Source: Rhodospirillaceae bacterium
Lineage (GTDB): Bacteria > Pseudomonadota > Alphaproteobacteria > Kiloniellales > DSM-21159
DNA length: 64,000 nucleotides
Assembly (NCBI GenBank): GCA_006969625.1
Contig: CP030885.1
Location: 2,677,430 to 2,741,429 of the forward strand
Direction: 5' to 3'
In this document: positions 54,617-55,204 of the stretch, in pieces
How positions within the stretch are numbered: the first letter of the stretch is position 1
How the letters are laid out: each line of letters starts with the position of its first letter
Notes under the pieces: generated by a model
Database searches by the model: none
Seen by the model: only the letters and a program-made list of their open reading frames with translations
Told to the model about the DNA's origin: nothing
Translations under genes and position numbers: made by a program

Positions 54617-54930
54617 CGCAAACTACTCCTCAGTGGCGGCGAAAGGCGCCGCTGCGCAGCCGACCCGTCGCCCTCGCCCGCGCGCTCGGCAGGCGAAAAA
54701 CAGCGACGAGCCGCCGGCGAAGCGTCGCCGAACGACCCTCGTCTTTCGTGTCCAACCGGTTTCGCGTCTGCGAACCAGGCACCGAAACGGGGCGAAGAAG
54801 AGCACCCATCCCGCTGTTGCGGCTGTCATGAACCGGGCCGGCTCGACCCGCTGACCTGACCTGCCGTGTTCAAACCGCGTCTACCGCCCTGGGGGCGATA
54901 CATCCGGCTTGCCGTGTCGGAACGGCGCGG

Positions 54931-54959
54931 AACATACGCACGCCCCCCGGTCCCGTCAA
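54931..54959 (-). promoter_or_regulatory. Sigma-70 promoter for rpsG-fusA-tuf
   Basis: On the minus strand TTGACG (54959-54954, 5/6) and TATGTT (54936-54931, 4/6) with a 17-base spacer. It leaves a leader of about 310 bases before rpsG, long for an rpsG leader and roughly the length of the missing rpsL. Confidence 0.6.
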
Positions 54960-55124
54960 GGACCAGAAACCCGGAAAACCGCGAGATTATCGACCCTGGC
55001 CGAAGTGACGGCGGCCGGACTGCCGCCACTTGCGCGCGCGCAGAGAGCCTGCATGTCGCGCGCTGCCGAACTTCGGCAAGAATCGCTCGCATTCCCATGC
55101 CGCCGCACAGGAATCCGAAAGCGG

Positions 55125-55156
55125 ATCGGGCGGAGCGCAAGCGCGCTCCGCCCGAT
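55125..55156 (-). terminator. Hairpin downstream of rpoC
   Basis: A perfect 14-bp stem (55125-55138 with 55143-55156), 4-base loop, 48 bases after the rpoC stop. No T-run follows on the minus strand, so it may end transcription inefficiently or protect the rpoBC mRNA 3' end. Confidence 0.55.
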
Positions 55157-55204
55157 GTGGCAAATCCCACGCCGGCCGGCTGGCCGACGCACCGTTGGCG
55201 ACCG

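Follow-up and report, generated by a model that had tools for sequence, protein, structure and literature searches.

Apparent replacement of the str-operon rpsL gene by a divergent S12 gene of putative streptomycin-resistant type in an alphaproteobacterial genus

The window, a stretch of 64,000 nucleotides, contains the junction between rpoC and the str operon. The rpoC open reading frame (55205-59398, minus strand), identified also by comparison of junctions, ends at 55205, and rpsG, encoding ribosomal protein S7 (54146-54616, minus strand), starts at 54616. The 588 bases between them (54617-55204, minus strand) are non-coding. In relatives this site of the str operon is occupied by the canonical rpsL gene, encoding ribosomal protein S12. 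In the window rpsG, which is 94% identical to rpsG of the sister species G001, has become the first gene of the operon and is followed by fusA, encoding EF-G (52002-54080, minus strand), which was matched in all junction loci compared. The original prediction that rpsL is missing between rpoC and rpsG was borne out. No S12 was found in the gap by tblastn with canonical and variant S12 sequences as queries, and an S12 HMM search of the three coding-strand frames of the gap at maximum sensitivity gave nothing below E = 0.49. These two blank searches rule out a residual rpsL within the gap.

The gap contains a hairpin and a promoter, as had been predicted. The hairpin (arms 55125-55138 and 55143-55156, minus strand) has a counterpart in G001 at the same position with a different stem sequence, and it is therefore most likely the rpoC terminator. 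A promoter scan of the gap found one promoter, TTGACG-17-TATGTT (54959-54931, minus strand), against 0.1 expected in shuffled sequences. This promoter is conserved in G001 and is a close match, flanks included (TCCTTGACGGGCCCCGGGGTCGTGCGTATTTTCCGCGCCGTTC), to the promoter that precedes canonical rpsL in G010, a genome of the same family. The match indicates that the str promoter survived and now serves rpsG, rpsL having been removed from behind it. The Shine-Dalgarno region of rpsG (CACTGAGGAGTAGTTTGCG end; 54617-54634, minus strand) is also conserved in G001. The motif TGAGGAG before rpsG resembles the overlap of rpsL stop codon and Shine-Dalgarno sequence in G011 and may be a fossil of such an overlap. 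No Rfam families were detected in window positions 30000-64000.

The genus is placed in the GTDB-type family Rhodovibrionaceae of the Alphaproteobacteria. In G001, which was assembled independently, the rpoC-rpsG junction likewise lacks rpsL, with a gap of 538 nt. In the third genus member, G002, rpsG was not found, and so the empty junction was read in the genome under study (G000) and G001 only. Of the same family, G003, G004, G005, G007, G010, and G011 have canonical rpsL in the rpoC-rpsG interval, and wherever S12 was detected in the family outside the genus, in seven genomes, it was the canonical version. No S12 match was obtained in the same-family G006 and G009, which are probably incomplete assemblies.

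It had been anticipated that the S12 gene must lie elsewhere. A search of the whole genome, which is assembled as a single contig of 4.62 Mb and rated 100% complete, revealed exactly one rpsL, about 750 kb away from the junction at C1:1981634-1982002. The displaced S12 is common to all three members of the genus, with 97-100% identity to the query. The original prediction had also considered that rpsL was lost in assembly or that the region is poorly assembled. The only point in favor of an assembly error or unfinished region is a frameshifted tuf copy nearby. Against it stand the identical empty junction in the independent G001 assembly, the displaced S12 in all three species, the single complete contig with S12 elsewhere, and the same situation in other carriers of this S12 (below), and we reject this explanation as extremely improbable. 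The description of the region as rearranged is too weak, as the S12 version is a different one, the native copy is lost, and its promoter has been kept.

The tuf anomaly had been taken as part of the same trouble but is unrelated to rpsL. The window copy of tuf (50679-51939) has a one-base frameshift near the 3' end, with the correct C terminus in another frame, and a second copy beyond the window (L217, 4111-5313) aligns with it at 98.75% identity and with a single 1-base gap. A sequence error may account for the frameshift. The reading frame of rplV (L22; 46780-47385, minus strand) lacks a stop codon ahead of rpsC and continues into that gene, possibly through an indel or an extended C terminus.

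The displaced S12 is only 68-73% identical to the other S12 proteins found in the order. It matches the bacterial ribosomal protein S12 model TIGR00981 over its full length (residues 1-123) with 198.3 bits against a cut-off of 112.95. The protein carries K43R, and the loop GGRVKDLPG is changed to GGGPNDLPG (R86G, V87P, and K88N, numbered with the initiator Met). Positions 43 and 86-88 are classical streptomycin-contact residues. Asp-89, the S12 residue modified by RimO, is kept. By its sequence this protein is a distinct version of S12 and not simply the rpsL of the family in a new place. Comparison of the variant gene in G000 and G001 revealed 26 synonymous and 4 non-synonymous codon differences, a pattern indicative of purifying selection, and its third-position GC content is host-like. 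A promoter-like TTGATC-17-TACATG, recognized by eye but missed by the scanner, precedes the gene and is conserved in three species, and a strong terminator follows at L032 10046-10079. The variant rpsL is thus predicted to be a solo unit with its own promoter and terminator. No compensating changes were found in 16S rRNA, as both rrn copies have the wild-type decoding-site motifs. In G000 the variant rpsL is immediately followed by an IS481-family transposase gene (L032, 10303-11370). The sibling species carry rimO-cysS at that place, which rules out that the insertion element displaced rpsL.

The essential protein S12 belongs to the core of the decoding centre, and its gene is a textbook streptomycin target. 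In rpsL genetics the sensitivity conferred by wild-type S12 is dominant, which is the basis of rpsL counter-selection. K43R, R86G, V87P, and K88N are present in every variant carrier, and all four are at streptomycin-resistance positions. K88N is the resistance mutation of Streptomyces lividans TK24, and R86P has been found in streptomycin-selected S. coelicolor (PMC6784132). High-level streptomycin resistance results from K42R/K43R and K87R/K88R in Klebsiella (PMC4182516) and Agrobacterium (PMC10521367). We infer that the variant S12 is of a streptomycin-resistant type.

A motif scan of the genomes of 84,980 species found 16 stretches matching the variant. These come from Stappia and close metagenome-assembled genomes (MAGs), Lichenibacterium ramalinae, Aerophototrophica crusticola, further MAGs, and a record with a contig matching G002. 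The MAG matches outside the Stappia relatives are one from the Caulobacterales, one alphaproteobacterial, and one gammaproteobacterial. Indioceanicola profundi also carries the variant, on a 1.18-Mb replicon and with 83.7% identity. Among 385 evenly drawn Alphaproteobacteria the best other S12 proteins had about 79-80% identity, and those read were canonical. In G296 (f124, g144), a 99% complete genome, the sole match to S12 has an E value of just 1.1e-10 and may reflect a further unusual or fragmented S12. The variant motif had no match on viruses in IMG/VR, and S12 matches in phage records had at most 67.5% identity among the matches listed.

Of the 16 motif-matched genomes, 14 have no S12 other than the variant. 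Within the Stappia family 60 of 61 genomes have exactly one S12, the Stappia-like proteins scoring 125-127 bits and the remainder 133-139. In the Stappia loci L043, L044, L047, L050, L051, L054, and L057 the variant rpsL is flanked on one side by a gene that by eye resembles gyrB and on the other by one related to DPRP photolyase (PF04244, on the basis of L043). The native gene is lost or decaying at its usual locus in other carriers as well. Neither the Stappia genomes read nor Aerophototrophica has an S12 gene before rpsG in the str operon, no S12 was seen within 1.5 kb upstream of rpsG in the Caulobacterales MAG, and the str operon of Lichenibacterium has just a weak C-terminal S12 remnant (E = 8e-4). 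The MAG G072 has the variant S12 together with a decayed native S12 between rpoC and rpsG, which has 58.5% identity to the canonical protein and lacks GGRVKDLPG, the streptomycin loop. G072 represents an intermediate stage of replacement. The gammaproteobacterial MAG UBA7310 has both S12 copies, with a GC content of 0.44 in the variant contig stretch versus 0.53 for the canonical one. This is possibly a binning error, and UBA7310 accordingly counts as weak evidence.

In an S12 tree all 14 distinct variant sequences formed one clade (support 99/96), whereas in a tree of S7 and EF-G the carriers were scattered and a single carrier clade was rejected (p-AU = 1.4e-5). The S12 of the genus is nearest to that of the Azospirillaceae, in agreement with the RimO tree, in which the genus is sister to Indioceanicola/Aerophototrophica (100/99). 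These trees bear on whether the genus could have moved its own rpsL without any transfer, the gene then diverging outside the str operon and reaching the same residues by convergence. AU tests on S12 alone, which are limited by the shortness of the protein, did not reject at the 0.05 level a grouping of the genus variant with the canonical S12 of its family (p = 0.058 with all columns, p = 0.18 without the hallmark columns). When the hallmark columns were removed the gammaproteobacterial variant fell outside the variant group; with that sequence left out the alphaproteobacterial variants still grouped, weakly (65). Relocation without transfer is nevertheless improbable in our judgment, as it must account for the same three neighboring substitutions, and K43R in addition, in all carriers, the well supported variant clade, the proximity to Azospirillaceae S12 with a concordant RimO tree, and the low identity to all other S12 proteins of the order. 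A grouping of the genus with Aerophototrophica was not rejected on S7 and EF-G (p = 0.095). Given this value and those on S12, horizontal origin of the variant S12 is the best supported reading rather than a proven one.

The rimO gene adjoins the variant rpsL in G001, G002, Indioceanicola, and Aerophototrophica and is about 32 kb from it in G000. The RimO neighbor in G001 and G002 scores 554.2 bits against the TIGR01125 cut-off of 356.95. The RimO tree and the adjacency of rimO in both groups suggest that rimO and rpsL moved between families as a linked pair. No RimO above the cut-off was found in the Stappia genomes or the Caulobacterales MAG, which rules out RimO as an obligatory partner of the variant S12. 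RimO is sporadic in Alphaproteobacteria, with strong matches in 32 of 190 genomes.

In G000 a gene for a predicted NpmA-family 16S m1A1408 methyltransferase (L032:7757-8398) lies upstream of the variant rpsL, at a distance of about 1.2 kb. The G001 gene is at the same distance, one DUF371 gene lying between in both genomes, and the G002 gene is split over two contigs. The proteins score 214.5 bits (G000) and 221.9 bits (G001) with PF24675 (cut-off 60), and the best solved relative is Kmr (4rwz). The critical Asp-30, Asp-55, and two Trp residues are kept; the roles of the critical Asp and Trp residues have been described for the 16S m1A1408 methyltransferases NpmA, NpmB, KamB, and Kmr (PMC4705659). 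Scores with the NCBIfam models for NpmA, NpmB, KamB, and WarA are below their cut-offs (at best 149.1 bits versus 460 for NpmB), and the neighbor is thus a predicted relative within the family and not one of these named proteins. The DUF371 protein in G000 (L032, 8404-9531, minus strand) has 375 amino acids and matches PF04027 with 54 bits; its remainder matches no family. PF24675 members above the cut-off were found in 5 of 189 other Alphaproteobacteria. The same-family G005, which has canonical S12, has an NpmA-family gene (G005:C66:18084-18707, L199) in a different context, with 52.6% identity.

None of the other variant carriers searched has a member of the family. This rules out NpmA as a partner of the variant S12 in general, and the neighbor supports an aminoglycoside driver in this genus only. 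The variant might instead have been acquired for a reason other than antibiotics, such as tuning of decoding accuracy or speed, or escape from another agent acting on S12. S12 residues 43 and 86-88 are known to govern fidelity as well, and in the stretches read, most of the carriers beyond this genus show no resistance gene linked to the variant. A non-antibiotic driver is rather unlikely in our view, though less so than relocation without transfer, as the four changed residues are all at streptomycin-resistance positions and the NpmA-family gene is a neighbor in this genus.

Replacement of the native S12 is seen in the relocation, the different version, the empty native site, the surviving promoter, the sole S12, the scattered carriers, and the decayed copy in another carrier. 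Acquisition by transfer, aminoglycosides as the driver, and actual resistance are inferred from sequence. The explanation that fits best would be recurrent xenologous replacement of S12 by a putative aminoglycoside-proof version. For this genus we consider it probable that a foreign S12 of streptomycin-resistant type was acquired and that its own rpsL was then lost from the str operon. In the proposed sequence of events the foreign gene would arrive, the native rpsL would be lost with the str promoter staying to serve rpsG, and the ribosome would come to depend on the foreign S12 as the sole S12 available. Loss of the native copy would be favored because sensitivity is dominant, and a resistant S12 protects only once the sensitive copy is gone. 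More tentatively, and with somewhat less than even confidence, an aminoglycoside-proof S12 may be spreading horizontally and repeatedly taking over ribosomes, native rpsL being lost as resistance is recessive; in this genus it might be paired with an A1408 methyltransferase and have moved together with its own RimO, making for a hardened decoding centre.

If this is true, target-replacement resistance extends to the ribosome in free-living bacteria, and what hinders the transfer of ribosomal proteins becomes open to stepwise study through a decaying native gene, a remnant, and an empty site. In these taxa concatenated trees could then be misled by S12, and counter-selection with rpsL might not work. 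Cultured Stappia would allow a direct test of the predicted resistance.

A search of the literature on duplicated or replaced rpsL found nothing relevant. Horizontal transfer is known for further ribosomal proteins, among them S14. For S4, horizontal transfer of zinc and non-zinc forms has been described, the authors tying the variants to zinc (PMC3087516). S4 and S14 are core ribosomal proteins with a history of transfer and with variants outside the usual operon, as proposed here for S12, but the changed residues of the S12 variant point to a decoding-site drug. The known rpsL resistance alleles (K42R/K43R, K87R/K88R/K88N, and R86P) alter the same S12 residues as the variant. Those alleles are point mutations in the native str-operon gene, whereas the variant is an entire divergent S12 encoded at a different locus that combines several changes at once, with the native gene gone. 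The product predicted for L032:7757-8398 belongs to the same family as NpmA, NpmB, KamB, and Kmr (PMC4705659), with the same activity predicted. This tie to the NpmA/KamB group is a feature of this genus among the variant carriers searched. Duplicated resistant targets include the second rpoB of Nonomuraea and the mupirocin-resistant ileS2. There the function of a sensitive essential target is taken over by a resistant form, as proposed here for S12. Unlike in those systems, where the sensitive copy is kept, the original S12 in the variant carriers is usually lost.
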